A DNA stretch of 64,000 nt from Bacillota bacterium (GTDB taxonomy: Bacteria; Bacillota; Clostridia; Ch29). The position numbers were made by a program, and so were the translations under genes. Within the stretch, counting starts at the first letter, position 1. The number at the start of each line of letters is the position of its first letter. Below, piece by piece: positions 8,096 to 63,344 of this stretch. The notes below the pieces were generated by a model. The model was not told the DNA's origin. It ran no database searches and saw only the letters and a program-made list of their open reading frames with translations. The stretch covers positions 124,001 through 188,000 of the forward strand of contig JABVCK010000004.1 in NCBI GenBank assembly GCA_013540605.1. Reading direction: 5' to 3'.

Positions 8096-8230
8096 ATAAT
8101 CGGGGACATTCCTCCCTCCCCAGAGCCATATATTGGGGACATTCCTCCTACCCCGGAGTTAGACTCCAAAAGGGAGGTGTGTCCCCTGACCTTAGGTGTG
8201 GAGGTGTGTCCCCATACCTTAGAGGATTAT
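8096..8230. repeat. GGGGACATTCC / GGTGTGTCCCC palindromic elements
   Basis: Two GGGGACATTCCTCC units face two GGAGGTGTGTCCCC units, giving nested inverted repeats across about 130 bp that include CCCCGGAG and AACTCC spacer pairs. Related units occur at 8422, 10783-10846, 22172 and 22391, and in inverse form at about 63468. The pattern resembles REP/BIME-type elements. No REP-associated transposase lies in this window. Confidence 0.75.
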
Positions 8231-13735: not shown

Positions 13736-13757
13736 ATTTAACGCCTCCTTTATTTTC

Positions 13758-14092
13758 TGGTTGATAGTTCGTAGTTAGTAGTTGGCAGATCACAGTTCAC
13801 AGATCACAGGTACTAGGTGCTAGATCGCAGTCCGCAGGTATCAGTTCGTAGTTCGTAGTTCGTAGTTGGTAGTTCGTAGTTCACGGACACAGGTGCTAGG
13901 TATTAGATCACAGTTCACAGATATCCGGGTTATGCTTTTGGGTTTTTACCCAATAAGCACTTCCCTGATGTCTAAAAACCGGCAACTGGCAACTGATAAC
14001 TGGTACTAAGCTTTACCCCATGTACTGGCAACTGGTAACTGGTGTCTGACAACTGGTATCTGGCATCTTATATCTGACAACTGCCCCCTTAC
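13758..14092. repeat. Heptamer-based hairpin repeat, copy 4, inside the valS leader
   Basis: This is the longest copy: AGTTCGT units, GATCACAGTTC units, a core GGGTTATGCTTTTGGG-TTTTTA-CCCAATAAGCAC with CTTCCCTGATG, and then AACTGGC/AACTGGT units with a second partial core (TAAGCTTTACCCCATG). It sits between the T-box terminator and the valS start, so it is transcribed as part of the valS 5' leader. Confidence 0.85.
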
Positions 14093-14095
14093 GCT

Positions 14096-14345
14096 AAAAA
14101 ACCCTCCGTCCTAGAAGGACGAAGGGCAAGCTTCGCGGTACCACCTTATTTCCCTGTAAGGGCTCTCAAATCAGGTTAACGGCTGAACCCGGCCCGGACT
14201 ACTGCTATTTCACCCGGACAGCTCGGTAGCTACCTTCAACAGGATACGCCGGGTGCCTTTCAGCCGGTGAACACCCTCTCTTGGGGCTGAAGCCTGTTTA
14301 CTCCTCTACTTCATCGCCTTTACCGACCATACATCAGTCTTTTAA
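14096..14345 (-). promoter_or_regulatory. T-box riboswitch controlling valS (specifier GUA)
   Basis: On the minus strand the leader contains the conserved T-box TGGTACCGCG (14134-14145 region). It is followed by a terminator stem CCCTTCGTCC / GGACGGAGGG and a T-run (14096-14126). In stem I, GTAG and AACAGG on the left pair with CTAC and CCTGTT on the right. This leaves a left loop AGGAGTA (with the AGUA element) opposite GAAGGTAG, so the specifier is GTA, a valine codon, at 14231-14233. Uncharged tRNA-Val would stabilise the antiterminator. Confidence 0.93.
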
Positions 14346-50944: not shown

Positions 50945-52048
50945 TTATTCCTTCACGATTAGTTCCACCGCTTTATGGACAAGTATCCCGCTCACAAACC
51001 CGTAGGCCATATTCCCTATAAGCGAGACTGCTACTGTTGCGGCCAGAGGAATAAAGTCTTTATCAAGGCGAATGCCTTTGCCGAATTTAGCCAGCTCCAA
51101 CCCTACCATAAACATCATCGCCCCCACTATAGCGGTTGGAAATGCCGCAAATATCGCCGCTATGGAACCGGCCAGGAACAGGCCTGCCAGCACTTCCAGC
51201 GTCCCCTCCATAATGTTTGTGCCGCCGGTCCGGGCTCCAAAATAATATTGACCTGCCAAGCCGCCGGCGCCATGACACATGGGCATCCCGCCGAAAAACG
51301 GCACAACAAGATTCATTACGCCCATATTCAGTGAAAGCCTCTTCTCGCTTACGGGTTTATCCGGCCAGTATTTTTTTATCAGTGCCGAAGTAGCAATAAC
51401 GGCATTTGTAGCAGTCAGGGGTATCTGGGCAAAGCCGCCTAACAAAAGCGACTGCCAGACTTCCTGCAGGCTAAAGGTGGTAAACTGCGGCAGGCTGAAA
51501 GCCGGTGCCCCCACCTGCCCAAATTGCCCCTTGGCCATCATTATGATTAATCCCATCAGTACCAGGACGAGGGCTGCCGGTGCATACCGGTTCTGTCTCA
51601 ATGCGATAATTATCAGAATGGAGATAATAGCGATAGTCCATCCATCGGTCATCATCTTTAAGGCTTGAAACGAGAGAAGAATACCCAGCGATACCTGTAT
51701 GCCTCTAATAACAGGGTGGGGTGTTGTTTTAGCGATAAAGTCCATAATCCCGGTGATGGAAAGCAATAACCAGATTATACCCATGGCAAAACCGGAAGCA
51801 TATATCATGGATGGCGTCCACTTCTGGGCGATAGCCACTACGGCAAGAACCTTCATGGGCTCTATTGGCATTGGCAGCCTGTAAACCAGCCCTGTCACTA
51901 TGTTTGCCAGGCCCATCATAACAAGGAAACCGGCCGGGTCCAATCCACAGGATACTATATACCCGATGGCCAGAGGAAAGAGCGTGCCGAAATCCCCCAT
52001 TGAACCTGCCAGCTCCCTCAGGTTGAACTCAAAGGATTTAATCTTCAC
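50945..52048 (-). CDS. MOT1-type molybdate/sulfate transporter family protein
   Basis: This 367-residue membrane protein has about ten helices. The family signatures are GSMGDFGTLFPLAIGYIVSCGLDPAGFLVMMG and YRLPMPIEPMKVLAVVAIAQ in the first half, and PMCHGAGGLAGQYYFGARTG in the second. These are hallmarks of the MOT1/SulP-like group that imports molybdate. The start chosen is GTG at 52048 after AAGGTGGGG. It is the last gene of the molybdenum-cofactor-linked minus-strand cluster, after the GntR regulator. Molybdate as substrate is inferred from family and context. Confidence 0.85.
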   Translation of the reverse strand: MKIKSFEFNLRELAGSMGDFGTLFPLAIGYIVSCGLDPAGFLVMMGLANIVTGLVYRLPMPIEPMKVLAVVAIAQKWTPSMIYASGFAMGIIWLLLSITGIMDFIAKTTPHPVIRGIQVSLGILLSFQALKMMTDGWTIAIISILIIIALRQNRYAPAALVLVLMGLIIMMAKGQFGQVGAPAFSLPQFTTFSLQEVWQSLLLGGFAQIPLTATNAVIATSALIKKYWPDKPVSEKRLSLNMGVMNLVVPFFGGMPMCHGAGGLAGQYYFGARTGGTNIMEGTLEVLAGLFLAGSIAAIFAAFPTAIVGAMMFMVGLELAKFGKGIRLDKDFIPLAATVAVSLIGNMAYGFVSGILVHKAVELIVKE

Positions 52049-52101
52049 AGTTGACCCCACCTTCACATAGTCACATCCTAATGCACTTAGCACTTAAACG
52101 T

Positions 52102-52806
52102 TTATTCGCCGAATATATTCTGCTTTACAGTCAGCAGGTGTTTCCGCATTTCCCGTTCAGCTTTCCCCGGGTTTCTCTCCCTTATCGCATCAAATATATT
52201 CCTGTGGTCAGTTTTGTACTGCTGTATACGCCCGTGCTGCTGAAGGCTCTTGCGTTTTAGATTCCCCCATAGTACCCCCATACGCTCGTTGTTTATGCTT
52301 TCTTCAATTTTCAGCAAAACTTCGTTGTCGGCAATTTTTGCAATCATCAGATGGAACTCTCTATCAATATTCTCATATCCGATATAGTCTTCATCACTCA
52401 ATGCTTCTGCCCTCTTAAGAATTGCGGAAAGTTCTTCGATCTCTTCATTGGTTGACCTTTGGGCTGCCAGCCTGGCTAGATCAGGTTCAATCACAATGCG
52501 AGCCTCAAACAATTCAAAGGGACTTATGCCCTTATCCATATCTTCGAGAATTATATCACCGGTTTCCCAGCTTTCAGGCTTTTCACAGACAAAGGTACCC
52601 GAACCGGTCCGGGATTCGATTAATCCCTGCATCTCCAATGCAGTCAGCGCTTCCCTTATGGTAGCCCTGCTGATCCCGAACTGGGATGCCATATCCCTTT
52701 CAGAAGGAAGCCGGTCGCCCGCTTTGATCTTCCCTTCTTTTATCAAGCTCTCAATTTGCTCAGCAACAAGCATATACATTTTTTTGCTTTTTACAGGGAT
52801 AAACAT
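52102..52806 (-). CDS. FadR-type GntR-family regulator
   Basis: A 234-residue transcription factor. The N-terminal winged helix includes VAEQIESLIKEGKIKAGDRLPSERDMASQFGISRATIREAL, followed by the helical FCD ligand domain (ELFEARIVIEPDLARLAAQR, FHLMIAKIADNEVLLKI, HRNIFDAIRERNPGKAEREMRKHL). FCD domains bind a metal ion and a carboxylated ligand. It sits between the kinase-like gene and the MOT1 transporter and probably controls that transporter. ATG start after GGGAG. Confidence 0.92.
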   Translation of the reverse strand: MFIPVKSKKMYMLVAEQIESLIKEGKIKAGDRLPSERDMASQFGISRATIREALTALEMQGLIESRTGSGTFVCEKPESWETGDIILEDMDKGISPFELFEARIVIEPDLARLAAQRSTNEEIEELSAILKRAEALSDEDYIGYENIDREFHLMIAKIADNEVLLKIEESINNERMGVLWGNLKRKSLQQHGRIQQYKTDHRNIFDAIRERNPGKAEREMRKHLLTVKQNIFGE

Positions 52807-52855
52807 ATTACACACTCCCAAAAATATTGATTTCCTATGCATCTTGTCATTGGCC

Positions 52856-53587
52856 TTAATACGTTAAAGCGGATTTAACAATTCCCTCCGGTATTTCCAT
52901 GTTTCTTCTGACACCTATCGCTTTGAGCTCTTTCCCTATCTCCCAGGCCACCCGTTCACTGTCCAGGTCCATCTCTTTGCCAAGTATATCGATGATCTGC
53001 TTTGCAAAACGCATTTTGTATGAAGTAAAGGCCGGCAGGTAGGTAATTATATACGAAAACAGTCTTCCCGCATCCTCCTCAATGCACCCCTCCCTGCAGT
53101 CTTCAAAATCCAGCCCGTACACCCTGTATGTAATCAAGAAGTTGCGCAGGTTCATATCCCAAAAAATTGTACTGCTTCCCGTAATCTCGGGGACGGCTCT
53201 ATAAAAGTCTTTCAACCAGCGGCATAAATGGACTGCCAGGCCATATGAGCCGGTATACACAGGACCGCTGTCCGGCCTCCCTTCCAGGTCGCTAATAATG
53301 TCGAGCAGGGTTGGCCCATTCAGGAATTCCAGCACGAGGAAATTCTCTCCCCTATAATACAGTTCAGGGACCGCAACCCCTCTATCGTGCAGTCCTGTCA
53401 GCAGCTCCGCCTCTCTATCCGCAGCGTTGTGCGGTTCTGCGTATACTTTTACTATATATGCTTTGTTTTCTCCGTTCAAGTGGACTGCCCTTATTTTGTA
53501 AACATCGTTTTTCTTGCTATCGAATTTCGTTTCTACACGGTATTCCCGTATATTGTTTGTACGAATGAACCCTTGGTCCAGCAGCAT
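52856..53587 (-). CDS. Protein-kinase-like (RIO/APH-type) phosphotransferase
   Basis: This 243-residue protein has a kinase-like fold. A VKVYAEPHNAADREAELLTGL segment suggests the ATP lysine and alphaC glutamate, followed by the hinge LVLEFLNGPTLLDII. The catalytic loop reads WDMNLRNFLI and the metal motif GLDFEDC, so the usual HxD and DFG are DMN and DFE. Its start overlaps the mobB stop as ATGA. It might phosphorylate a cofactor precursor or regulate partners. Kinase-like genes fused or coupled with MobB are not something I know. Confidence 0.65.
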   Translation of the reverse strand: MLLDQGFIRTNNIREYRVETKFDSKKNDVYKIRAVHLNGENKAYIVKVYAEPHNAADREAELLTGLHDRGVAVPELYYRGENFLVLEFLNGPTLLDIISDLEGRPDSGPVYTGSYGLAVHLCRWLKDFYRAVPEITGSSTIFWDMNLRNFLITYRVYGLDFEDCREGCIEEDAGRLFSYIITYLPAFTSYKMRFAKQIIDILGKEMDLDSERVAWEIGKELKAIGVRRNMEIPEGIVKSALTY

Positions 53588-54336
53588 CAGACACCACCTA
53601 TCCGAACTTCTATGCTCGCTCCGGGTCTATAGCCTTCCAACTCCTTGACTACCCCCTCAACGGCGTTAAACAGAATATTCTGGACAAAGGGTACCATGCT
53701 AATTTCCCTGCCATCGACCAGCAGCTTCACCCGGCCCTTTGAGATAATGCAGTCTTCCCTTTTCGCCTCACCCTTGAGAATTTTCGCCCCAAGCTCTTTG
53801 CAGGAATGACCACAGGCTGTGCAGCACTCGGGTGGGAAATCAGGAAGCTTTTCATAAACCTTGTCTTCTATAAGGTCTACCAGCCTTTCGATATCCTCGA
53901 TTGCGCTTATAACCGGTATTCCCCTGTATTCCGTCATCATATTTGCCAGCTTACCGGAAATTGCAAAAACAGTATCATCCAGCCTCTCGTCCACTTCCTG
54001 CGTTGAATGGGCTGTGACAATTTTCGGCGCATTGCAGTCGGTTACCCCTTCCAGCACAACAAAATCGTGATTATAGAATTTCAAAATTTCATCCATTTCA
54101 AGCATTCTTGGAAATAACACATCGGTCTCATAATATCCCCTTGCTGTGACCAGCTCGGAACCTGCCATTCTGTGCCTGTACGTATTGGTTCCCTCTTTGT
54201 CGATGGCGAATTGTTCAAAGTGAATCTCCTTGACCGAACCTACCGAATACCTCCTTCTTTTCAACTCCCTTATTATGTTCTCAATCGTCGTAGTTTTTCC
54301 TGACTGGGTTATTCCAAACACAGAGAATACTTTCAT
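53587..54336 (-). CDS. mobB: MobB-type molybdopterin-guanine dinucleotide protein
   Basis: A 249-residue GTP-binding protein of molybdenum-cofactor biosynthesis. The P-loop is FGITQSGKTTTIENII (residues 7-22), with the MobB features KEIHFEQFAIDKEGTNTYRHRMAGS and VVLEGVTD. A cysteine-rich insert, CCTACGHSC at 171-179 plus C196, could hold a metal or Fe-S cluster. MobB helps MobA add GMP to molybdopterin. Start ATG at 54336 after TGGAGGGTGG. It lies between ecfT and the kinase-like gene, which links the ECF transporter to Moco biology. Confidence 0.9.
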   Translation of the reverse strand: MKVFSVFGITQSGKTTTIENIIRELKRRRYSVGSVKEIHFEQFAIDKEGTNTYRHRMAGSELVTARGYYETDVLFPRMLEMDEILKFYNHDFVVLEGVTDCNAPKIVTAHSTQEVDERLDDTVFAISGKLANMMTEYRGIPVISAIEDIERLVDLIEDKVYEKLPDFPPECCTACGHSCKELGAKILKGEAKREDCIISKGRVKLLVDGREISMVPFVQNILFNAVEGVVKELEGYRPGASIEVRIGGV

Positions 54337-54352
54337 AGTCCCACCCTCCATT

Positions 54353-55099
54353 TCAGAACGGCCTGTAATAGCATAACAGCACCACCACACCCGCTATCAA
54401 ACTCATAATAATAGTAGCATAATCCCTGGGTTTCATACTCAAAATCATATAACTTGTTCTTTTCGGATATGCCCTGAAGGCCCTGGTTTCCATAGCAGTG
54501 GATAGCTCCCTGGATTTTATCATAGCCCCTGAAACTACGGGCATAACCAAACACGAATATATTTTGAACCTCTGCTTATACGGTATCTTGTCCAGATCCA
54601 CCCCTCTTAGCTGGATCGCGGTAACTACATTCTTCATTTCCTCGGACAGCGTCGGCAAAAACCTGATTCCAACCGAGACCATGAATGCAATTTCATAGGG
54701 GATTCTCCACTGCACAAGTCCCTGTATAATTTCCCTTGAGTTTGATGTCGACATAATGGTTGCGGATACCAATACTATTGACATCCTTAAGACCATAGAT
54801 ATTCCTTTCATGAAACCTCCGCCGGTTATCAGGGTAAATCCGCCTATGCTCAGCAGGCTTTCCCCCGAAGGTGCAAAAATACTCTGAACAACAGCTATAG
54901 CAACAAAAAGTCCAAGGATTCTTCTCATCTTCTTTACCACGGAAAATAACGGACTCCCAAAAGCTGTTGACAGGACTCCGGAGATTAAGAGCACACCGGT
55001 AAGCATATAGATATCCTGGATAAAGACTCCAAGCGTAGAGAGACATAGAACTATAACGAGCTTTGTCCTGGGGTCCATCCCATTAACGGCAGTCTTCAA
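54353..55099 (-). CDS. ecfT: ECF transporter transmembrane component EcfT
   Basis: A 248-residue membrane scaffold (CbiQ/EcfT family) with about five helices. The ATPase-coupling helices show the A-R-[GS] type motifs: SRELSTAMETRAFRAYPKRT near the C-terminus and EEMKNVVTAIQLRGVDLDKIPY in the middle. N-terminal MDPRTKLVIVLCLSTLGVF is typical. The most likely start is TTG at 55099, eight bases after GGAGG inside the end of the ecfA2 gene. With two ATPases and one S component in the same cluster the transporter is complete. Confidence 0.9.
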   Translation of the reverse strand: MKTAVNGMDPRTKLVIVLCLSTLGVFIQDIYMLTGVLLISGVLSTAFGSPLFSVVKKMRRILGLFVAIAVVQSIFAPSGESLLSIGGFTLITGGGFMKGISMVLRMSIVLVSATIMSTSNSREIIQGLVQWRIPYEIAFMVSVGIRFLPTLSEEMKNVVTAIQLRGVDLDKIPYKQRFKIYSCLVMPVVSGAMIKSRELSTAMETRAFRAYPKRTSYMILSMKPRDYATIIMSLIAGVVVLLCYYRPF

Positions 55100-55748
55100 C
55101 AATCTCACCTCCGGACATTTTTATTATCCTGTCGGAATGACGTTTAACAAATTCCTGGTCATGGCTGATTACGGCCATTCCAATCCCCTTCTGTCTAAGC
55201 TCCTCAAGGATTCCTGCAAGCACCTTTCTCCTATCCATATCCAGACCGGTTGTGGGTTCATCCAGGACCAAAAACCCCGGTTCGTTTACCAACACCGCAG
55301 CAATGGCCAGGCGCTGTTTCTCTCCCCTGCTAAGCTTAAACGGGAGGGATTCCTTCAAATGTAAAAGATGAAATGTTTCAAGAGAATTCTTCACCTTACG
55401 GTCAATTTCCTCCTTTGTACAACCCTTCAATTCCAGAACAAAAGATATTTCTTCCTTTACCGACGTTGCAAACAACTGATGGCTTGGATTTTGAAACAAG
55501 TACCCGATTTTGCTGCCAATTTCACCCAGGGTCATGGCCCTGCTATCCTTACCACAAATCAACACCTGCCCAGTGCTTGGTTTTAAAATGCCTGTCATGA
55601 GCTTGCCCAGGGTAGTTTTTCCGCTGCCGTTTGGCCCCGTGATGGCTGTAAACTGATGGCTGTACAGCTGCAGGGAAAGATCCTTGATTACAGGCCTTCC
55701 CTGCGGATATCCGAAACTGACTTTTCTTACCTCGATATACGGAAGAAT
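55083..55748 (-). CDS. ecfA2: ECF transporter ATPase EcfA2, probable ATT start
   Basis: A 221-residue ATPase: Walker A TGPNGSGKTTLGKLM, signature LSRGEKQRLAIAAVL, Walker B FLVLDEPTTGLD, switch AVISHDQEFV. The first ATG in frame (55598) lies after the Walker A motif, so it cannot be the start. The frame continues upstream through PYIEVRKVSFGYPQGRPVIKD, which is the proper N-terminus, without any ATG, GTG or TTG. An ATT at 55746-55748 lies seven bases after AAAGGGGG. A rare ATT start is therefore likely; a sequencing error is the alternative. Confidence 0.85.
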   Translation of the reverse strand: MLPYIEVRKVSFGYPQGRPVIKDLSLQLYSHQFTAITGPNGSGKTTLGKLMTGILKPSTGQVLICGKDSRAMTLGEIGSKIGYLFQNPSHQLFATSVKEEISFVLELKGCTKEEIDRKVKNSLETFHLLHLKESLPFKLSRGEKQRLAIAAVLVNEPGFLVLDEPTTGLDMDRRKVLAGILEELRQKGIGMAVISHDQEFVKRHSDRIIKMSGGEIVEDCR

Positions 55749-55771
55749 AGCTATACCCCCTTTACCTCTCT

Positions 55772-56458
55772 TTACAGGGTGCCGCTGAATGCTTCAAACT
55801 TTCCGTCTTTCAGGAGAAGGACACGGTCGGCAATATCCAGGTTGCCCCAGTCGTGCTCAACCATTATCACCGTCTTCCCGGCGCTTTTGAGTTCCTTGAT
55901 TATCTCTTTTATCGCCCTTCTGCCCTCTGTATCTATCTGGGACATCACTTCATCAAAAATCAATATGTCCGGCTTCAAACTGAGAACAGACGCAAGGGCT
56001 ATCAATTGTTTCTGTCCCCCGGAGAAATGGTTTGGGCTTCCAAACCTGAATTCCTCCATTCTTACCTGCATTAACGCTGCGTCAATCCTTTTTCCTATCT
56101 CCTCCCTGTCAATACACAGGTTTTCCGGTCCGAAGGCAATTTCGTCCTCCACGGTGGGGGAGAACAGCTGGGTATCGGGGTCCTGAAAGACAATGCCCAG
56201 CCTTGTGGCGATTTCCGGCACCTTGAGCTTGCCGGTTGATTCACCATATATTAAGACCTCGCCCCTCATTTCCCCACCGAATATATGGGGTATAATTCCG
56301 CTTAAGCAGTAGCAGAGGGTACTCTTACCGCTTCCGCTCAATCCTACTATGGCCAGTATTTCACCCTCTTCAGCCTTTAAATTGATACCCTTTAATATAT
56401 CCCCCTTTCCATCGGGGTAGCTGTAGTAAAGATTATGCACTTCAAGGGGATAACTCAT
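55772..56458 (-). CDS. ecfA1: ECF transporter ATPase EcfA1
   Basis: A 228-residue ATPase with Walker A VGLSGSGKSTLCYCLSG, the EcfA-type IPHIFGGEMRGEVLIYG region, Q-loop VFQDPDTQLFSPTVEDEIAFG, signature HFSGGQKQLIALAS, Walker B DILIFDEVMSQID and the switch histidine in VMVEHDW. The start overlaps the upstream gene by four bases. Pairs with EcfA2. Confidence 0.93.
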   Translation of the reverse strand: MSYPLEVHNLYYSYPDGKGDILKGINLKAEEGEILAIVGLSGSGKSTLCYCLSGIIPHIFGGEMRGEVLIYGESTGKLKVPEIATRLGIVFQDPDTQLFSPTVEDEIAFGPENLCIDREEIGKRIDAALMQVRMEEFRFGSPNHFSGGQKQLIALASVLSLKPDILIFDEVMSQIDTEGRRAIKEIIKELKSAGKTVIMVEHDWGNLDIADRVLLLKDGKFEAFSGTL

Positions 56459-56967
56459 TGAAGCTCAATCTCCATCACAAATTTGCACCATCTCTGGCTG
56501 AAGGGGTCCTTCCTTATAATGACCTGGTAAGGTCCGCTTCCTCCGTCTTCCTTCCTGCCCAGGGGCTCGCCATCCCTTTTGTAAGCCAGGTATACGTTAT
56601 CATCCTCCAGCACTTCATCCATATTAAGCGCTGAGGTATAACCGTCTACAGCCTTGACTATTACCATAGTCTTGCCTTCGGTCGGGATATTCTGCGAATC
56701 AAACACATTTTTAAGCGGAACCCCCGCAAAGCTGTGCTTCTCCGGGTCCTGTCCGCTGCTTTTTATATTGGCGTCAAATTCCACTTCTCCAAGGGTTTTT
56801 ATATATTCCATATCCACCCTGGCAACCTCCGCCCCATCAGACTTAATGATTAAGATGGCGTTATCCTGGCTGTCCTGTTTGGCTGCCAGGTCACCCCTAT
56901 TCATATAAGCCGTTATCCCGACTATAATAACGAGTATGGCCACCGCTGCAATGACTATTTTTTTCAT
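56455..56967 (-). CDS. Membrane-anchored protein with sulfite-oxidase-type molybdopterin fold
   Basis: A 170-residue exported protein. It has one N-terminal signal/anchor (VIAAVAILVIIVGITAYM) and an extracytoplasmic domain resembling a shortened Oxidored_molyb (SUOX/YedY) domain: HSFAGVPLKNVFDSQ, VIVKAVDGYTSALNMDEVL, VYLAYKRDGEPLGRKEDGG and SGPYQVIIRKD. It lacks the region that carries the Mo-ligating cysteine, so catalysis is unlikely and a cofactor-binding role is plausible. It overlaps the phosphodiesterase and ecfA1 genes by four bases each. Confidence 0.72.
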   Translation of the reverse strand: MKKIVIAAVAILVIIVGITAYMNRGDLAAKQDSQDNAILIIKSDGAEVARVDMEYIKTLGEVEFDANIKSSGQDPEKHSFAGVPLKNVFDSQNIPTEGKTMVIVKAVDGYTSALNMDEVLEDDNVYLAYKRDGEPLGRKEDGGSGPYQVIIRKDPFSQRWCKFVMEIELQ

Positions 56968-58226
56968 TTCCGTCCCTCCCCATCGGTTATAATATAGGGT
57001 ACTATCAAATCCTCAAAACAAAAGCTCCCATGGTCCCCTGCCTCCGGTGTGGAATGCATCCCATGGTCCGCAGTAATAACCACTTTGCCTTTCCATCGGG
57101 AAACCAGTTCTTTAACATATCCGTCGGTTCTGCTGACAGCTTCCATGGTTGACGGATGTATATCGCCGTAGCTGTGCCCGCTGTCATCAATGCCATGGAA
57201 ATGAACAACGAGAAGATTATAGTCACCATTCACATATTCCAGGGCGGTTTCCAGTATCTCATCATCGGTTATACCGTTTGAATTTTTGTCCACATTGAGC
57301 CTGGGCTCCAGGCTTGTATTCAATATCTTGATGTCCCCCTCCACCATGGCGCATTTCTTATTCATAACCAGGGCATCATTGAACACTGTTGGGGTCTTTA
57401 TATCCTTCTGCTTCCTAGAGTTGACCCCATTCTCCTCCGGCGGTTTACCCGTATACATAGCGGCCAATCCAGCATTGGTCACGGGCCTGTAAACGGATGT
57501 GGCCATATTCGCCGGAGGGAGGCTCGCCAGGAAGTTGGCATGCCCTGCTTCCACAGCGTACAGGTACTGGTGATAGCCAAAGCCATCCAGAATGATAAGC
57601 ATGACATTTTTATCGTTTTCAAGAAAATGAAGGGTGTCGTAATACGCGTCCATTATGCTCCCGACGGGTGGATCGACCATTATTCCCGCCAGGTCCGCAA
57701 CCCTGTTTTTAAGGTCAGGGCAAACATAGTCTATTGTATTATCTCCAATCTCCAGGTACCCGTCATTCTTTACCCTCCTGTATTCACCGTTCCTTCCCAT
57801 TATCAGCAGGTTCCCGTGCTTTTCCTCTATTACAGTTTTTAAGTCAACCATTCTTCTCTGCGTATAGATGCTGACACCGTATGTCTTACCGTCGTTCTCC
57901 ACCGAGGATTTCCCTTCAAACACCGGGAAATTCAACCTTATCCCGGCATAAAGCCGGCCTGCGGTCATATAGCCGATGTTTTCGGTAGGGCTGATGATGC
58001 CCATACCGTTGTCGGGCGAAGCGGCACCCGACACAACCACTATCTCTTTGATCCTTTCAAAGCCCTCCAGAGTATCGACCTTCAAGGGTTTTTCAACGTC
58101 CCCCACCACCGTGAAAACCGGAACATATCCGGTCGCCACGCCGCCGATGGTTGTTGTAGAAAATTTTCCTGCTGCAAACACCGCAAGGACCAGGATAATA
58201 CATAATACAAACACCTTCCATTTCAT
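56964..58226 (-). CDS. Exported type I phosphodiesterase/nucleotide-pyrophosphatase-like enzyme
   Basis: A 420-residue protein with an N-terminal signal anchor (VFVLCIILVLAVFAAG). An N-terminal domain (about 40-190) of unknown kind precedes an alkaline-phosphatase-superfamily domain of the NPP type. Metal and nucleophile sites are seen in MLIILDGFGYHQYL, the threonine/serine region NMATSVYRPVTNAGLAAMYTG, VVHFHGIDDSGHSYGDIH and VVITADHGMHSTPEAGDHGSF. Family members cleave phosphodiester or pyrophosphate bonds outside the membrane. In this cluster a dinucleotide cofactor would be a logical substrate. Start ATG at 58226 after GGGGTGG. Confidence 0.8.
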   Translation of the reverse strand: MKWKVFVLCIILVLAVFAAGKFSTTTIGGVATGYVPVFTVVGDVEKPLKVDTLEGFERIKEIVVVSGAASPDNGMGIISPTENIGYMTAGRLYAGIRLNFPVFEGKSSVENDGKTYGVSIYTQRRMVDLKTVIEEKHGNLLIMGRNGEYRRVKNDGYLEIGDNTIDYVCPDLKNRVADLAGIMVDPPVGSIMDAYYDTLHFLENDKNVMLIILDGFGYHQYLYAVEAGHANFLASLPPANMATSVYRPVTNAGLAAMYTGKPPEENGVNSRKQKDIKTPTVFNDALVMNKKCAMVEGDIKILNTSLEPRLNVDKNSNGITDDEILETALEYVNGDYNLLVVHFHGIDDSGHSYGDIHPSTMEAVSRTDGYVKELVSRWKGKVVITADHGMHSTPEAGDHGSFCFEDLIVPYIITDGEGRK

Positions 58227-58237
58227 AGCATCCACCC

Positions 58238-58801
58238 CTATGCCTCAAAGTTCCCGAGGTTAAGCTTTTTGAACTGCTTGACTACATTGAAAGCGATTAT
58301 CCCGCCGACGCCCCCTGAAAGGGCTGCGCTGCTCAAACTTAACAGCAGCGGAATTAAAGGCAGTCTGAAAAAGACCAGATTTACAAGAAAGGTACCGCTG
58401 ATATTGGACACTATTCCCGCCGCGAAACAGCAACCTAGGCAGCATCCCCTGTGTCTGATCAAAAACAGAAGTAGGTCGACCGAGAGTCCGGGAAGGATAT
58501 ATGTGAAAAAGCTCATTATCCCATGGGTGCCGAATATGCCCAAGGAAATCACCATTATTGCCTGCACAACGGATATGAGGGTGGCAGCGCCCCTTTTGCC
58601 CACAAGCCCTGCCCCCATAACTATCCACATCATATAGAAGCCGCCGGCGATTACCCCTCCCGGTATGTATAGGGGCCCTGTAATGATATGCGCGAGAGGG
58701 ACCACCACCGGTTTTATCGCTATGCCAATGGCCGCCATCATGGCGATAACCACCAGGTCAAACATAGAGAACCCGGACATAAATTTTCTGAATGCCACCA
58801 T
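58238..58801 (-). CDS. ECF transporter substrate-specific (S) component
   Basis: A 187-residue membrane protein with six predicted helices and the small-residue-rich first helix expected of S components (FDLVVIAMMAAIGIAIKPVVVPLAH). Other segments are GPLYIPGGVIAGGFYMMWI, IMSFFTYILPGLSVDLLLFLI and a cysteine cluster RHRGCCLGCCFAAG between helices 4 and 5. It does not match an S component whose vitamin or metal I can name. Its operon context points to a molybdopterin-type or Mo/W ligand. Ribosome site GAGGAG. Confidence 0.8.
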   Translation of the reverse strand: MVAFRKFMSGFSMFDLVVIAMMAAIGIAIKPVVVPLAHIITGPLYIPGGVIAGGFYMMWIVMGAGLVGKRGAATLISVVQAIMVISLGIFGTHGIMSFFTYILPGLSVDLLLFLIRHRGCCLGCCFAAGIVSNISGTFLVNLVFFRLPLIPLLLSLSSAALSGGVGGIIAFNVVKQFKKLNLGNFEA

Positions 58802-58814
58802 CACCACTCCTCAG

Positions 58815-59003
58815 CTATTTTGCAACTATAATCTTTACCGTCTTCTTGATCCACCAGTTTGAACCCTTATCGTTGACAACCAGCTGGACCGGGCCGGATT
58901 CTTCGTCAAGGTCGTTTCCATCCACCTTCAACCCTAGGATAGTGCCTTCACTCTCCACAAGGTCCGGGGTATACTCCGATATATTACCTCCGGCACTGAT
59001 TAT
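58815..59003 (-). pseudogene. C-terminal remnant of a molybdopterin-fold domain
   Basis: Between the DUF364 gene and the S component a frame ending at 58815 encodes LIISAGGNISEYTPDLVES, LGLKVDGNDLDEESGPVQLV and KGSNWWIKKTVKIIVAK. This matches the last third of the SUOX-like domain found in the two neighbouring lipoproteins (dGxpL...GPvqlvv). No ATG or well-placed GTG/TTG opens it; a GTG at 58958 would give only 47 residues. It is either a truncated domain left by deletion or a small gene with an unusual start. Confidence 0.55.
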
Positions 59004-59746
59004 TAAATCCGCCTGTACACCTGAACTACGCTGTCCCCAAGGGAAAGGCCTCCGCCTCCCTGGCTCGCGATTCTTAATACCCTCTGAGGGTCAGCCACCG
59101 CAGCCCCCGCCAGCATTGTTACTCCATGCTCTTTGAAGACCTCGGGGCACAGGGATGCCGTTGGGCCCATAACCACAATCTCCCTCGCCTTCCTGCTCTT
59201 CTCCAGTATATGGTCCATGGTCTTGTTGAGTAAAGTTGTGCCGGTTATCACCACCACATCGCATTCGGGAAGGTAAATATCCTCGGCCCAATCCGGCAGA
59301 AGGCACCTGTCGTCGGTAATGTTCCTCTCGAATACGTATATCTGTTTCGCCCTTCCGGTGAACTTTTCCATGACCGGCTTGAAATATCCTATCATGCCCA
59401 GCACGTCTCCCGGCCTCACGTCTATCTTTTCTATGACATCCCCTCTGCTAAAGCCCTCTAACCTCTGCTGAAGTATTGCATTTATTACGGCCAACCCTAT
59501 AGCAGATTTGACCAGGTTTGTATCCATAGCCCACCGGATGATTTCTTCACAGCCGACGCCTATAAGGTTGCCCGCTTCTTCCACGAGTCCGCAGGTGGGA
59601 CCCAACTCGCTCCTGAATGTAAAGGTCAGCCCACAGCTCCCATCGTCCAGCAGCACGGTAGTATAACCGATTCCTACTCTTATATCCGCAATACTCCTTA
59701 TGGACGCATCGTCCTTGACGGCCTCTATCAGTTTATCAACAATCAT
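59003..59746 (-). CDS. DUF4213/DUF364 putative metal-chelation protein
   Basis: A 247-residue cytoplasmic protein. The N-terminal enolase-like DUF4213 part (IRVGIGYTTVLLDDGSCGLTFTFR) is followed by the Rossmann-like DUF364 domain with GDVLGMIGYFKPVMEKF, CDVVVITGTTLLNKTMDHIL and IVVMGPTASLCPEVFKEHGVTMLAG. The family is described as putative heavy-metal chelation and occurs with metal-uptake and cobalamin/molybdenum genes. The ATG lies two bases after the stop of the preceding lipoprotein gene. Confidence 0.88.
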   Translation of the reverse strand: MIVDKLIEAVKDDASIRSIADIRVGIGYTTVLLDDGSCGLTFTFRSELGPTCGLVEEAGNLIGVGCEEIIRWAMDTNLVKSAIGLAVINAILQQRLEGFSRGDVIEKIDVRPGDVLGMIGYFKPVMEKFTGRAKQIYVFERNITDDRCLLPDWAEDIYLPECDVVVITGTTLLNKTMDHILEKSRKAREIVVMGPTASLCPEVFKEHGVTMLAGAAVADPQRVLRIASQGGGGLSLGDSVVQVYRRI

Positions 59747-59747
59747 T

Positions 59748-60860
59748 CTAGTTACCCTTAACCGTTTCCACCGAAAGCAGTCCCTTGATGGACGTATTTT
59801 TGGGTAACCCGTCGAAATAGACTGCAACCTGTCCCTTGTCGTTGATGTAAACTATCCCCTTCCCCATGTCTCCTGCGCCTATCTCGACGGTATATCCATC
59901 CTCCGCCGTCAGCAAATACACTTCGGCACTGGAAAGGCCCGTTTCAGAGATGATATCCGTCATGCCTATGCCCTGCTTTTCCCCGGCAGTCTTTATGTCC
60001 ATACATTCCAATCCCTTTTCTGCGGAGAAAACCACATTGCCGCCGTAGGTAAACCACAGTATATTTTTAATATACATTCCCTTGGGCAGGTCAGGGGACA
60101 AAAATGCCGGCGTATCATCTCCGGTGAATTTAATATATCCACCGTTGAATATATCCCTCTGTTCATTCTTCTCAAACCCGTCCGCAGCTTTAAAAGCAAC
60201 TGTGTCAGGTTGGTCTTCTATGCCAAGATAAGAGATCAGTTGGTCTACCCTGACAGCCTTATCCGTACTCTCATAATAGGTGTAGTCCTCGGCCGGGGTG
60301 CCTGAAAACCCGGTTTCAATGAAGTAGAGCCTGTTAACCTCGGTACTTTTTATTCCCTCCAGAACTTCTATTTTTGCCAGATTCCTTACCCAGTACATTG
60401 CCCTCTCCCCGGGAACCACTGCCCTTACGGGTTTGCTCTGCTCGTCCAGGGGCTGGCCGTCGATTGTGTGGGCCAGAATAACATCCCTGGCTTCCAGCAC
60501 CTCCGGCGGAACCTCAATGGAATAACCGTCTCCGGCCACCAGCCTTATCCCGGAAAGGTCCCTTTGGGATTTCCCATGTTTCTTCAGCAGGTCCTCTAAA
60601 AGAGGTCCGGTTACAGTGTAGGTATTCGTATTGCCTGCGGAGTCAATAGCCACTGCGTCTGTGGTTACAGACTCCATGCTTTTTAGCTCTTCAACCGTCA
60701 CCTCAATGTCCGTGCTTTCCAACCCGGTTATCACAAGCTTTTCGCCCTCTTTACCCTCTTCCGGAGCCGCATTCTCCGCCGGCTTTGAACATCCGGCCGC
60801 AGCCATCATCAGTATCAGCAAGACGGCGGCGATGCTGAACGCAAATAATCTTTTTCCCAT
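59748..60860 (-). CDS. Lipoprotein with two sulfite-oxidase-like (molybdopterin-fold) domains
   Basis: A 370-residue lipoprotein: signal FSIAAVLLILMMAAAGC with lipid Cys at about residue 24. It contains a first SUOX-like domain with YTVTGPLLEDLLKKHG, IRLVAGDGYSIEVPPEVLE, VILAHTIDGQPLD and PVRAVVPGERAMYWVRNL. A second, more degenerate copy follows (VRVDQLISYLG, VAFKAADGFEKNEQRD, ECMDIKTAGEKQG). The cysteine that ligates Mo in true enzymes is absent. This suggests a surface-bound protein that binds molybdopterin or a similar ligand rather than an enzyme. The downstream DUF364 gene is tightly linked. Confidence 0.78.
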   Translation of the reverse strand: MGKRLFAFSIAAVLLILMMAAAGCSKPAENAAPEEGKEGEKLVITGLESTDIEVTVEELKSMESVTTDAVAIDSAGNTNTYTVTGPLLEDLLKKHGKSQRDLSGIRLVAGDGYSIEVPPEVLEARDVILAHTIDGQPLDEQSKPVRAVVPGERAMYWVRNLAKIEVLEGIKSTEVNRLYFIETGFSGTPAEDYTYYESTDKAVRVDQLISYLGIEDQPDTVAFKAADGFEKNEQRDIFNGGYIKFTGDDTPAFLSPDLPKGMYIKNILWFTYGGNVVFSAEKGLECMDIKTAGEKQGIGMTDIISETGLSSAEVYLLTAEDGYTVEIGAGDMGKGIVYINDKGQVAVYFDGLPKNTSIKGLLSVETVKGN

Positions 60861-60864
60861 GTGA

Positions 60865-61374
60865 CTATTCTACCTCCTCATAGATTTTCGCAAAGTTTTC
60901 AAAACATTGGTTTACTCCCTCAATGACAGCCTGGCTTGTCTTAGTAGCACCCGTGATAGCCACTATCTCATCCTGTGCCTTGGCTGACAGCTTCACCAGC
61001 TTCAGGGGGCTCCCCGCCTTTTTCCCGCTGAACCTGCCCAGGAACCATCCCTCGGTAAGGTATCCGCCGTAGTCTTCGCTTTCGTGGTGCTCCAGTATTG
61101 CCAGCTTTTCCAAAGCCTTTGTACCGATGTTGATTGAAACGCGCATCCTGATATCACCCTTGAACCCCTGAACGGTTACCTCTTGTATGACGAACGTATT
61201 GTCAATTATGTACGTGCCTTTTATGCTGCCCGTTTCATAGTTGGGGAGCCTTTTGATTTCCAGTCCGGAGAACTCATTTCTAATATGTTCGGGTATTGAC
61301 CCGGCAGGCGAGCATGAGGTAAGCAAAAGAACAACCGTAAAGATAATGACTCTAGTGATTTTAATAGATACCAA
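60865..61374 (-). CDS. FMN-binding domain lipoprotein
   Basis: A 169-residue exported protein. The N-terminus (VIIFTVVLLLTSCSPA) is a lipoprotein signal with lipobox LTSC. The rest is an FMN_bind domain as in RnfG/NqrC, with the flavinylation-type motif ITGATKTSQAVIEGVN near the C-terminus. It probably carries covalent FMN outside the membrane. Starts upstream of 61446 are excluded because they fall in the terminator of the Moco riboswitch. Candidates are TTG at 61374, which touches GGGGG, or an ATT at 61365 nine bases after GGGGG. It is the first gene of the riboswitch-controlled operon. Confidence 0.8.
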   Translation of the reverse strand: MVSIKITRVIIFTVVLLLTSCSPAGSIPEHIRNEFSGLEIKRLPNYETGSIKGTYIIDNTFVIQEVTVQGFKGDIRMRVSINIGTKALEKLAILEHHESEDYGGYLTEGWFLGRFSGKKAGSPLKLVKLSAKAQDEIVAITGATKTSQAVIEGVNQCFENFAKIYEEVE

Positions 61375-61443
61375 CCCCCTATTCAATCGATAAAACAATA
61401 GCTCCCCACACGGGTGTGCAAGGAGCCATTTATTCCTTATCCA

Positions 61444-61471
61444 GCAAAAAACGCCTTCAAAGGAGGCGTTG
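61444..61471 (-). terminator. Riboswitch-linked terminator
   Basis: On the minus strand AACGCCT-CCTTTGA-AGGCGTT is followed by TTTTTG. It lies 35 bases beyond the candidate Moco riboswitch and ahead of the first gene, as expected for the expression platform. The GGAGG-like run in its loop side could alternatively pair with the riboswitch P1 region. Confidence 0.75.
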
Positions 61472-61504
61472 ATATACAGATAAAAATCGAACCGTATATG
61501 CTGT

Positions 61505-61605
61505 TCTTCTCCTTTCCACATCGGGAGGCATAACCGTTTCCAGCCATACCCTATCGGTCAGCACACCATAGGTTTTAAGCCTAAGGCGTGAAGACTCGGA
61601 GCTAT
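61505..61605 (-). promoter_or_regulatory. Candidate Moco (molybdenum/tungsten cofactor) riboswitch
   Basis: On the minus strand the leader folds into a closing stem CTCC (in CTCCGAG, 61595-61601) with GGAG (in GGAAAGGAG, 61509-61517). One internal hairpin is CACGCC-TTAGG...CCTAT-GGTGTG. A second hairpin, GGTAT-GGCTG-GAAA-CGGTT-ATGCC, is extended by GGG/CCC and capped by a GAAA tetraloop. The layout and the CTCCGAG / GGAAAGGAG ends agree with my memory of the Moco RNA motif. The promoter upstream, the terminator downstream and the Moco-linked genes support the call. A covariance-model search was not possible here. Confidence 0.7.
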
Positions 61606-61623
61606 GTATGTACTTGTAAGTAT

Positions 61624-61652
61624 ATTTTATTCAATTATCACGGGTTTGTCAA
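61624..61652 (-). promoter_or_regulatory. Sigma-A promoter of the Moco-linked operon
   Basis: TTGACA (61647-61652) and TAAAAT (61624-61629) are separated by exactly 17 bp on the minus strand, placing the transcript start near 61617, twelve bases before the riboswitch. It begins five bases after the stop codon of the DUF3343 gene. Confidence 0.85.
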
Positions 61653-61656
61653 ACCT

Positions 61657-61890
61657 TTATGCACTGTATATAAGTCTTTCCCTTCCGCCCTCTACTGCAA
61701 ACAGCTTGTGTATATCCTCGCTTATATACCGCCTTATATCTCCGTCCAGGACAACCCGTACGCCTATACCGCAGTCCGAGCTCAGTTTGCGCGGCACCGG
61801 CAGCAGTTCTATTGTGATGCCGTTCTTCTCCATATACCTTTTGTACTTCATTGCCCCCGAGTGGGTAAAAAAGGTTGCAACATATTCCAT
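61657..61890 (-). CDS. DUF3343 protein of the selenium module
   Basis: A 77-residue DUF3343 protein (YVATFFTHSGAMKYKRYMEKNGITIELLPVPRKLSSDCGIGVRV). The conserved cysteine lies in the SSDCGIG loop. The family regularly accompanies yedF/yedE and class V aminotransferases in bacteria that use selenium. I favour the second in-frame ATG (61890), preceded by AAGGT; the first is six bases upstream. Confidence 0.88.
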   Translation of the reverse strand: MEYVATFFTHSGAMKYKRYMEKNGITIELLPVPRKLSSDCGIGVRVVLDGDIRRYISEDIHKLFAVEGGRERLIYSA

Positions 61891-61896
61891 AAGCAT

Positions 61897-62118
61897 CTAC
61901 CTTGTCAAAGTCAATATAAAATCAGAGCCGCTCTTCTCAACGCTTACCTGGTACCCTGCATTTTTCCCAAACCTGGTCACGTTATCCCTGGCCGTGGTAT
62001 TGTCAACTATAACCTGCACGCCGCCGGTGCAATTCTCCACAGCCTTCTTTGTCAACAGGACCGGTTCAGGGCAGGACCTTCCCCTTGCATCCACCTGGTT
62101 AAGATTCAAGCTTGGCAT
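61897..62118 (-). CDS. yedF: TusA/YedF-type sulfur/selenium carrier protein
   Basis: A 73-residue TusA-family protein with the active cysteine in DARGRSCPEPVLLTKKAV (about C15) and the later DNTTARDNVTRFGKNAGY segment that is typical of YedF. It consists of the TusA domain only; full YedF proteins of selenium users have an additional C-terminal domain. Such proteins carry persulfide or perselenide sulfur/selenium. The start overlaps the end of yedE by 20 bases. Confidence 0.88.
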   Translation of the reverse strand: MPSLNLNQVDARGRSCPEPVLLTKKAVENCTGGVQVIVDNTTARDNVTRFGKNAGYQVSVEKSGSDFILTLTR

Positions 62119-63184
62119 CCCCCTTCACTTTAATATCGCTGCTCCTGTCAATATTAAAATAGCCAACCGCAAATACGGCGATAAACCCTATTATTACTGC
62201 AACCTGCCCGTTAGCTGTAGGCCCGTTAGCGGATGCGGCCAATCCGAAGTTGTGGGCAAAGGCTGCTCCGGCAGCCATTCCCATAACGGTTACGGCTGAA
62301 TCAATGTTGCCCTCGGCCGCCAGAATCAGCTGTCTTAGGGGGCACCCACCAAGGAGCACCGATGCCCACCCGGCCAGGGCCATTCCTAGAAAATTCCACA
62401 GCCCATCGGTATGCGCGATGGGTTGGCCCTCAAATCCTAGTTTAAATGTACCTGCAATAAGGTTGGCCGCCAGTGCTGCTGCAAATATTGCTATGAAGCC
62501 CGATAGAAGGTGCCAATCCTTAAACATTATAAGGTCCCTCAAACCGCCAACCATACAAAGCCTGGTCCTTTGTGCAAGGGCTCCGAGAGCCAATCCTGCC
62601 GCCAGGGATAAAACCACCGGCGCGTGCGCCGCGCCAGGGCCGCTTTCGCTGAAGAAGATGAATGCCGGTCTGACAATCAGAAGAACCAGCAAACCAAGGG
62701 CTATTGCCGGAAAAAGGTAGCCTTCAAAACTCGAAAGAGAATAAGTCCTTTTTAGCGAGAACCCTTTATTAAGAAATACAATGCCTATTCCTATCCCTGA
62801 AACAAATCCAAGAATACCGAATATCGCGTTAAGGTCTCCTCCAGCCAGCCTGAGTATCATTCTCAGAGGACATCCCAGAAACATCAACGCCCCCACTATA
62901 ACAATAAATCCGAGTACAAACCTGGCAAAGGGTGATGACCCTCCCCTGACGTTAAACTCCTTTGCCCCAAAGGCCATCAGGAAGGCTCCCAGCACTATAC
63001 CCAGGATTTCCGGCCTTATGTACTGGACTACCGCAGCCCTGTGCAGCCCCAGGGCTCCCACCGTATCCCTGATGAAGCAGGCAATGCAAAGCCCATAATT
63101 CCCCGCATTTCCCGATTTAACCAGAACCACGGCCAGTATGCCTGCTATGGCTCCGGTTATCATGATGCCTTTCTTGCCACCCAT
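62099..63184 (-). CDS. yedE: YedE-family selenium/sulfur transporter
   Basis: A 361-residue membrane protein with about ten helices and two copies of the family signature around conserved cysteines: ALMFLGCPLRMILRLAGGDLNA and SVLLGGCPLRQLILAAEGNID. Additional motifs are GNYGLCIACFIRDTVGALG and QRTRLCMVGGLRD. YedE-related proteins with YedF and DUF3343 are associated with selenium metabolism. Start ATG at 63184 after AAGGAGGGG. It forms an operon with yedF and the DUF3343 gene. Confidence 0.92.
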   Translation of the reverse strand: MGGKKGIMITGAIAGILAVVLVKSGNAGNYGLCIACFIRDTVGALGLHRAAVVQYIRPEILGIVLGAFLMAFGAKEFNVRGGSSPFARFVLGFIVIVGALMFLGCPLRMILRLAGGDLNAIFGILGFVSGIGIGIVFLNKGFSLKRTYSLSSFEGYLFPAIALGLLVLLIVRPAFIFFSESGPGAAHAPVVLSLAAGLALGALAQRTRLCMVGGLRDLIMFKDWHLLSGFIAIFAAALAANLIAGTFKLGFEGQPIAHTDGLWNFLGMALAGWASVLLGGCPLRQLILAAEGNIDSAVTVMGMAAGAAFAHNFGLAASANGPTANGQVAVIIGFIAVFAVGYFNIDRSSDIKVKGDAKLES

Positions 63185-63344
63185 GTTACCCCTCCTTATG
63201 TAGTACTGTTGCCAAAATTCACCTTTCACCAGTTATTTTATTAACAAATCCCGCAGAAGTACAATAACCGTAATTTATACAAGAACAGGTATTATAACAA
63301 ATATCTATCGTTGGAGCGGAGGGATTTGTAGTACAATAGGGTAA

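Follow-up and report, generated by a model that had tools for sequence, protein, structure and literature searches.

Among RNAs of the riboswitch class RF01055, those that lack stem P3 associate with genes for the tungsten cofactor (Tuco), as described by Regulski et al. 2008 (PMC2408646), and in E. coli the specificity stayed the same after removal of P3 (PMC2408646). Two P3-lacking RNAs that stand before 'sulphite oxidase' genes in Syntrophomonas wolfei were noted as exceptions in the same work (PMC2408646). A separate line of research concerns the PruR proteins, which are without the cysteine that ligates molybdenum and bind pterins in a pocket described as too small for the full molybdenum cofactor, Moco (PMC13259868). 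How pterins cross bacterial membranes was stated to be unknown in a 2026 review (PMC13259868), and according to a 2022 paper the uptake of exogenous Moco had been neither examined nor observed outside C. elegans (PMC9793310).

Here we describe, in a stretch of 64,000 nucleotides from a Bacillota bacterium (the window), a P3-lacking, Tuco-type RF01055 riboswitch that probably attenuates an operon for uptake of a tungsten/molybdenum pterin cofactor. Going further, we propose, at slightly less than even chance, that finished, metal-loaded cofactor is scavenged by way of surface proteins of the sulfite-oxidase fold, that some anaerobes have lost its synthesis and depend on this supply, and that the Tuco riboswitch senses the import. 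The argument starts from features that were computed: the aptamer, its terminator and the complementarity that would form an antiterminator, the make-up of the operon, the conservation of the cassette, and its presence in tungstoenzyme genomes without cofactor synthesis.

Table 1. Features of the control unit and of the operon behind it, with positions in the window.
Feature	Position	Strand	Evidence or remark
Sigma-A/70-type promoter TTGACA-17-TAAAAT	61624..61652	(-)	11/12 consensus positions matched
RF01055 aptamer, P3-lacking (Tuco-type)	61493..61613	(-)	71.9 bits, model positions 1-135 (full); covariation
AAAGGAG, 3' side of P1 and 5' strand of putative antiterminator	61509..61515	(-)	complementary to 61465-61459
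Intrinsic terminator AACGCCT-CCTTTGA-AGGCGTT + T run	61445..61470 (T-run end ~61445)	(-)	stem -8.1 kcal/mol
CUCCUUU in terminator hairpin, 3' strand of putative antiterminator	61459..61465	(-)	7-bp duplex
Second long hairpin, weaker T run, possible back-up terminator	61397..61430	(-)	
FMN-binding (RnfG-like) lipoprotein, TGAT flavinylation-type motif	60865..61366	(-)	PF04205; start codon uncertain
Lipoprotein with Oxidored_molyb (sulfite-oxidase-fold) domain, without Mo-ligand Cys	59748..60860	(-)	PF00174
DUF4213/DUF364 putative heavy-metal/pterin chelation enzyme	59003..59827	(-)	true start probably near 59750; PMC2954201
ECF transporter S (substrate-capture) component	58238..58807	(-)	PF09819; alignment
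Secreted type I phosphodiesterase/nucleotide pyrophosphatase-like protein	56964..58235	(-)	
Small membrane-anchored sulfite-oxidase-fold (PruR-like) protein	56455..56967	(-)	PF00174
ECF ATPase 1	55772..56458	(-)	ECF_ATPase_1/2 profiles
ECF ATPase 2	55083..55787	(-)	ECF_ATPase_1/2 profiles; frame open, unusual start
ECF T component (CbiQ-like)	54353..55108	(-)	CbiQ profile
MobB-like GTPase with FeS domain	53587..54390	(-)	PF03205; start probably near 54336
APH/choline-kinase-like small-molecule kinase	52856..53587	(-)	PF01636, weak
GntR/FCD regulator, contiguous with operon	52102..52842	(-)	
MOT1-type molybdate transporter, contiguous with operon, ends it	50945..52093	(-)	PF16983

The control unit is complete and occupies 61652-61445 of the minus strand, with promoter, aptamer and intrinsic terminator all lying inside the interval to which an earlier note on this DNA had drawn attention (Table 1). 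The promoter and the AACGCCT terminator with its U run were found as that note had read them, and the check that it proposed, a search with the RF01055 covariance model, returned a full-length match far above the gathering score of 36 bits (E 2.2e-15 in the window search). The note had also drawn a four-stem RNA, closed by CTCC/GGAG and capped by GAAA, as a candidate Moco aptamer; its stems proved to be P1, which holds CUCC/GGAG, P2, P4, which is capped by GAAA, and a short P5, but P3 is missing, so that the RNA, although an RF01055 riboswitch, is of the Tuco-type variant (PMC2408646). The leader folds better than its dinucleotide shuffles (z -2.56), and the covariation score of 62 homologous aptamers is 0.520, against 0.192 when shuffled and at most 0.126 when slid, with changes on both sides at 30 of 37 pairs in an alignment that had been fitted to the model. 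A chance origin of the motif is ruled out by the covariance score together with this covariation, and the riboswitch is a new member of the described class RF01055.

The earlier proposal of an OFF switch agrees with the overlap between terminator and antiterminator, in which AAAGGAG is set against CUCCUUU; judged from sequence, the pairing of the 3' strand of P1 with the terminator fits the layout of a ligand-OFF attenuator, whose response to the ligand we infer from the family (PMC2408646). Between the two complementary strands stands an 8-bp hairpin (AUAUACGG:CUGUAUAU), which would juxtapose them. When cofactor is low, AAAGGAG would pair with CUCCUUU, no terminator would form and the operon would be transcribed; when it is ample, the stabilised aptamer would keep AAAGGAG within P1, allowing the terminator to form and transcription to stop. 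Folding of the leader gave the terminated form as the free minimum, at -56.0 kcal/mol, and -52.8 kcal/mol with the antiterminator enforced, a cost of about 3 kcal/mol, and the switch would therefore be kinetic, that is, decided during transcription. A terminator follows within 150 nt of the aptamer in 31 of 65 aptamer leaders, where shuffles would lead one to expect 1.2. Complementarity of P1 to the terminator reached p <= 0.05 in only 5 of these 31 terminator-bearing leaders by a shuffle test that is weakened by U/G-rich arms, and we do not count it as proof.

In the alignment of the window aptamer, the model positions of P3 are deleted and GAU links P2 to P4. The P2-P4 junction measures at most 7 nt, and hence has no room for P3, in 61 of the 62 homologous aptamers; the sole cassette aptamer of a different kind (L118:4990-5123) carries an 18-nt P3-like hairpin there. 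The genome of the window contains five copies of RF01055, and the other four precede a formate-dehydrogenase operon whose catalytic gene contains TGA, a tupABC-moeA-moeA-moaA cluster and two tungsten AOR loci; the same genome (G000) has 15 AFOR_N matches. Since P3 is absent and the other copies are tied to tungsten-linked genes, Tuco is more likely than Moco to be the ligand on this analysis. It is unlikely that the aptamer senses Moco and that the loss of P3 is merely drift: the link between absence of P3 and Tuco is correlative, and the E. coli deletion left specificity as it was (PMC2408646), but every one of the five genomic copies is tied to tungsten genes, AOR or formate dehydrogenase, and the loss extends through nearly all of the cassette aptamers.

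Some related genomes are far richer in this motif, with 16 to 31 copies of RF01055 each in G300, G306, G307, G308 and G310 (loci L068, L075, L077, L078 and L083). These genomes are Desulfoscipio-labelled MAGs, Sporotomaculum and Pelotomaculum, and the regulon is unusually large for one riboswitch class. At locus L006, the riboswitch-led formate dehydrogenase operon holds a near-identical tandem duplication of NuoE/NuoF-like genes (L006:6280-9070 and 11357-14189).

The genes of the operon lie on the strand of the aptamer and mostly overlap or are separated by very short gaps. S, T and two A components occur together (PF09819, CbiQ and ECF_ATPase_1/2 profiles), which is the make-up of a Group I ECF transporter. 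The earlier note had foreseen a transport unit with no moa or moe gene directly downstream of the switch. Transport it is, by an ECF transporter, and moa and moe are indeed missing there; however, the operon has a MobB gene, MoeA turns up in the cassettes of some relatives, and the pterin-fold lipoproteins, MobB and kinase-like protein mark the unit as more than simple metal transport. Molybdate transporters were already known under the motif (PMC2408646); to the target repertoire, which the note had expected to grow, the locus would add an ECF cofactor-type uptake cassette. A PDB profile search with the S component gave no match; this result, and the presence of RF01055 before nearly all cassettes, led us to reject the thiamine-precursor (YkoE-like) or cobalt S function that its Pfam name would suggest. 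A frameshift in the second ECF ATPase was ruled out from its open frame.

The gap of ~195 bp between the DUF364 and S genes holds the C-terminal remnant of a third PF00174 lipoprotein gene (58815-59000, minus strand), which in the relatives L030 and L031 is whole and followed by FecBCD genes. Beside the operon is a probable selenium-handling cluster (61655-63229 on the minus strand and from 63493 onward on the plus strand), comprising genes for a YedE-like Sulf_transp protein, TusA, a Se/S carrier protein and a class-V aminotransferase, which fits the formate dehydrogenases with in-frame TGA in the same genome. The window also contains a T-box leader (14112-14323, minus strand, 120.5 bits).

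The small PF00174 protein was modelled with a mean pLDDT of 88, and the closest solved folds are those of sulfite oxidases (Z 12-16) and PruR (Z about 16); further Foldseek and VIA matches were weak and were disregarded. Its sequence profile likewise matches SorA and PruR (E about 2e-4 to 6e-4). The only cysteine, C161 in FSQRWCK near the C-terminus, aligns with the valine that follows the conserved tryptophan of SorA. The PF00174 proteins share the sulfite oxidase/YedY fold, and the cysteine that would ligate molybdenum is absent, which rules them out as active molybdoenzymes. Binding of a cofactor by these proteins of the cassette is plausible, judging from the modelled fold and from the pterin binding of PruR, although the small size described for the PruR pocket (PMC13259868) counts against it.

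Within the class, the S component was found in 16 of 291 genomes, distant matches set aside, and most of these cassette genomes have the same gene set around it; the order of the ECF components is kept in most relatives. RF01055 lies near the cassette at 12 of the 15 loci of class-sample relatives, nine times upstream of the cassette and three times before an adjoining large PF00174 protein, and contig ends truncate two of the other three loci. Scanning named genomes yielded 269 relatives, and 80 loci were read. Across these 80 homologous loci, from Clostridia and their relatives, the covariance model detected 62 aptamers at 50 loci, all but one (61/62) upstream of S and on its strand; some of the 30 loci without an aptamer are cut by contig ends, and others may be unregulated. 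The content of the cassette varies. MoeA is encoded inside four of them (L076, L087, L090 and L114), some contain large PF00174 repeat proteins with S-layer anchors, and FecBCD genes are inserted in those of close relatives; the FMN_bind gene is missing from many, and FMN_bind/PF00174 fusions occur in relatives. Tandem Tuco-type aptamers were seen in L054, L083, L091, L104, L109 and L117, the last with three (at 8186, 8357 and 8531). Perhaps a molybdenum version of the uptake system is seen at L046:9893-11647, where a Moco RNA with P3 stands in front of a distant S component, a small lipoprotein-like gene and MobA.

The cassette keeps company with tungstoenzymes: AOR is encoded in all 16 class-sample cassette genomes, as against 26 of 275 genomes without the cassette (Fisher p = 2e-15). 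The 48 cassette genome handles include nine distinct genomes that have neither MoaA nor MoaC and are putative cofactor auxotrophs (G056, G174, G237, G298, G299, G301, G312, G314 and G319; G056 was reached also as G291). TupA is missing in all nine and present in 14 of 14 comparators. MoeA is missing in eight, and the ninth, G312, has its only MoeA in its cassette. AOR genes nevertheless occur in eight of the nine; G301, the isolate Anaerosalibacter ND1, has instead two PF00384 enzymes of the formate-dehydrogenase type, and the gene of one of them contains TGA in frame. In this isolate a bis-MGD-type molybdopterin oxidoreductase gene is immediately 3' of the ECF genes, and MobA adjoins a second formate dehydrogenase. 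RF01055 stands directly before the cassette in all nine genomes, and no further copy was found in the genomes of G298, G301 and G319.

Because tup-moeA-moaA-moaC often form one cluster, as they do in the genome of the window, a single missing contig could mimic the loss of all four. Against such an artefact, the absence is seen independently in G174 and G237, which belong to the same genus, G301 comes from an isolate, G056 has a completeness of 98%, and the genes are on separate contigs in the comparators G022, G198 and G292-G295, where one gap would be insufficient. In the class sample, MoaC is absent in 3 of 16 cassette genomes and in 1 of 26 AOR genomes without S, a difference that is not significant (p = 0.15), so that the argument from auxotrophy rests on the nine individual genomes; G243 is an AOR genome that has neither MoaC nor the cassette. 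MoaE (PF02391) was unusable as a marker, being undetected in 32 of the 48 cassette genomes, that of the window included, though most of them have MoaA and MoaC; this scarcity is a hint of an unrecognised molybdopterin synthase. The genome of the window has moaA, moaC, moeA and tupABC, and uptake here would thus be an extra route.

As the putative auxotrophs have no cofactor synthesis yet possess enzymes that need the cofactor, import of a tungsten/molybdenum pterin is the most likely function of the cassette, and where MoeA and the tungstate importer are also gone, the metal-loaded form is the simplest reading. The ligand, cargo, direction of transport and role of each protein, which we infer, would then combine as follows. 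Extracellular capture of the pterin would fall to the lipoproteins of the sulfite-oxidase fold, a part that repeat proteins anchored to the S-layer would play in some relatives. The secreted phosphodiesterase would remove nucleotide or phosphate groups, and the ECF transporter would carry the pterin into the cell, to be delivered or re-modified by MobB, in some genomes along with MobA or the kinase-like protein.

It is somewhat unlikely that the imported compound is instead a metal-free precursor (cPMP, molybdopterin or a degraded pterin) into which the metal is inserted inside the cell. Such a route would suit G312, where the MoeA of the cassette is the only one retained of the biosynthetic genes tested, and derivatives of pterin or flavin have been proposed as substrates of DUF364 (PMC2954201), but eight of the nine putative auxotrophs lack MoeA and TupA alike.

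We consider it quite unlikely that the cassette imports the metal itself, as tungstate or molybdate, perhaps chelated, with the riboswitch exerting ordinary end-product repression of metal uptake. Metal alone would be useless to genomes with tungsten or molybdenum enzymes but without MoaA and MoaC, and most cassette genomes already have TupA. An oxyanion, moreover, needs no secreted phosphodiesterase, pterin-fold lipoproteins or kinase-like protein, and to our knowledge the metal ECF systems CbiMNQO and NikMNQO have an S family other than that of the cassette. Metal import nonetheless draws on several observations: the motif has been described ahead of modABC-type transporters (PMC2408646), DUF364 is tied by genome context to Mo/W transport (PMC2954201), the operon of the window ends in MOT1, and MoeA or FecBCD genes are found in the cassettes of some relatives. 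It is very improbable that the genes form an extracellular redox system of flavin and molybdopterin-domain lipoproteins, with an ECF transporter for flavin or some other vitamin like the ECF flavin transport known from extracellular electron transfer in Listeria (PMC9973259), for despite the flavinylation-like motif of the FMN_bind protein and the fusions with PF00174, nearly all cassettes are under a Tuco/Moco RNA rather than an FMN RNA, many do without an FMN_bind gene, and the PF00174 proteins have no Mo-ligand cysteine.

If scavenging of the finished cofactor is the correct reading, the Mo/W cofactor would be a shared micronutrient in anaerobic communities, as B12 is, and cofactor auxotrophs among syntrophs would be revealed. 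The instability of free Moco is held to preclude its exchange between cells. Our search of the open-access literature (most subscription journals and all preprints lay outside it) found no description of bacterial Moco/Tuco uptake or of an ECF transporter under RF01055, and within those bounds bacterial uptake of the ready-made cofactor is a route not described before. With the cassette, the passage of molybdopterin across membranes could be tested directly, a question that bears on the treatment of human Moco deficiency. The two 'sulphite oxidase' exceptions of the 2008 riboswitch paper would probably be explained as well: S. wolfei subsp. methylbutyratica has an S-T-A cassette and, ~18 kb upstream of it, a series of non-enzymatic PF00174 repeat proteins headed by RF01055, and, judged from this locus, the exceptions (PMC2408646) are probably the present uptake system.

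Of the known systems, the Group I ECF transporters under B12, thiamine and flavin riboswitches are similar in having S, T and two ATPases in one operon behind a cofactor riboswitch, but the S component of the window is without a PDB profile match and its cargo would be a Mo/W pterin. Lha of Staphylococcus lugdunensis (PMC7299338) is likewise an ECF system that scavenges a metal-containing cofactor, in its case haem, a metal-tetrapyrrole, whereas the proposed capture proteins here have the sulfite-oxidase fold and the proposed cargo is a pterin. PruR (PDB 7KOS, 7KOM and 7KP2; PMC13259868) shares with the small protein of the window a secreted sulfite-oxidase fold without the Mo-ligand cysteine; its ligands are small pterins and it works together with DcpA in c-di-GMP signalling, while the operon has no DcpA or DTB-type regulator beside the PruR-like protein, which is encoded with a transporter. 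The DUF364 protein Dhaf4260 (PDB 3L5O, PMC2954201) belongs to the same Pfam family as that of the window and has the same context of Mo/W transport, with a putative function in both, but the one in the window is under a Tuco RNA. The riboswitch itself conforms to RF01055 (PMC2408646) in its full-length covariance match, its P1, P2, P4 and P5 stems, its terminator-type expression platform and its membership of the P3-lacking subtype, and differs from the described examples in that it controls an ECF cofactor-type uptake cassette.
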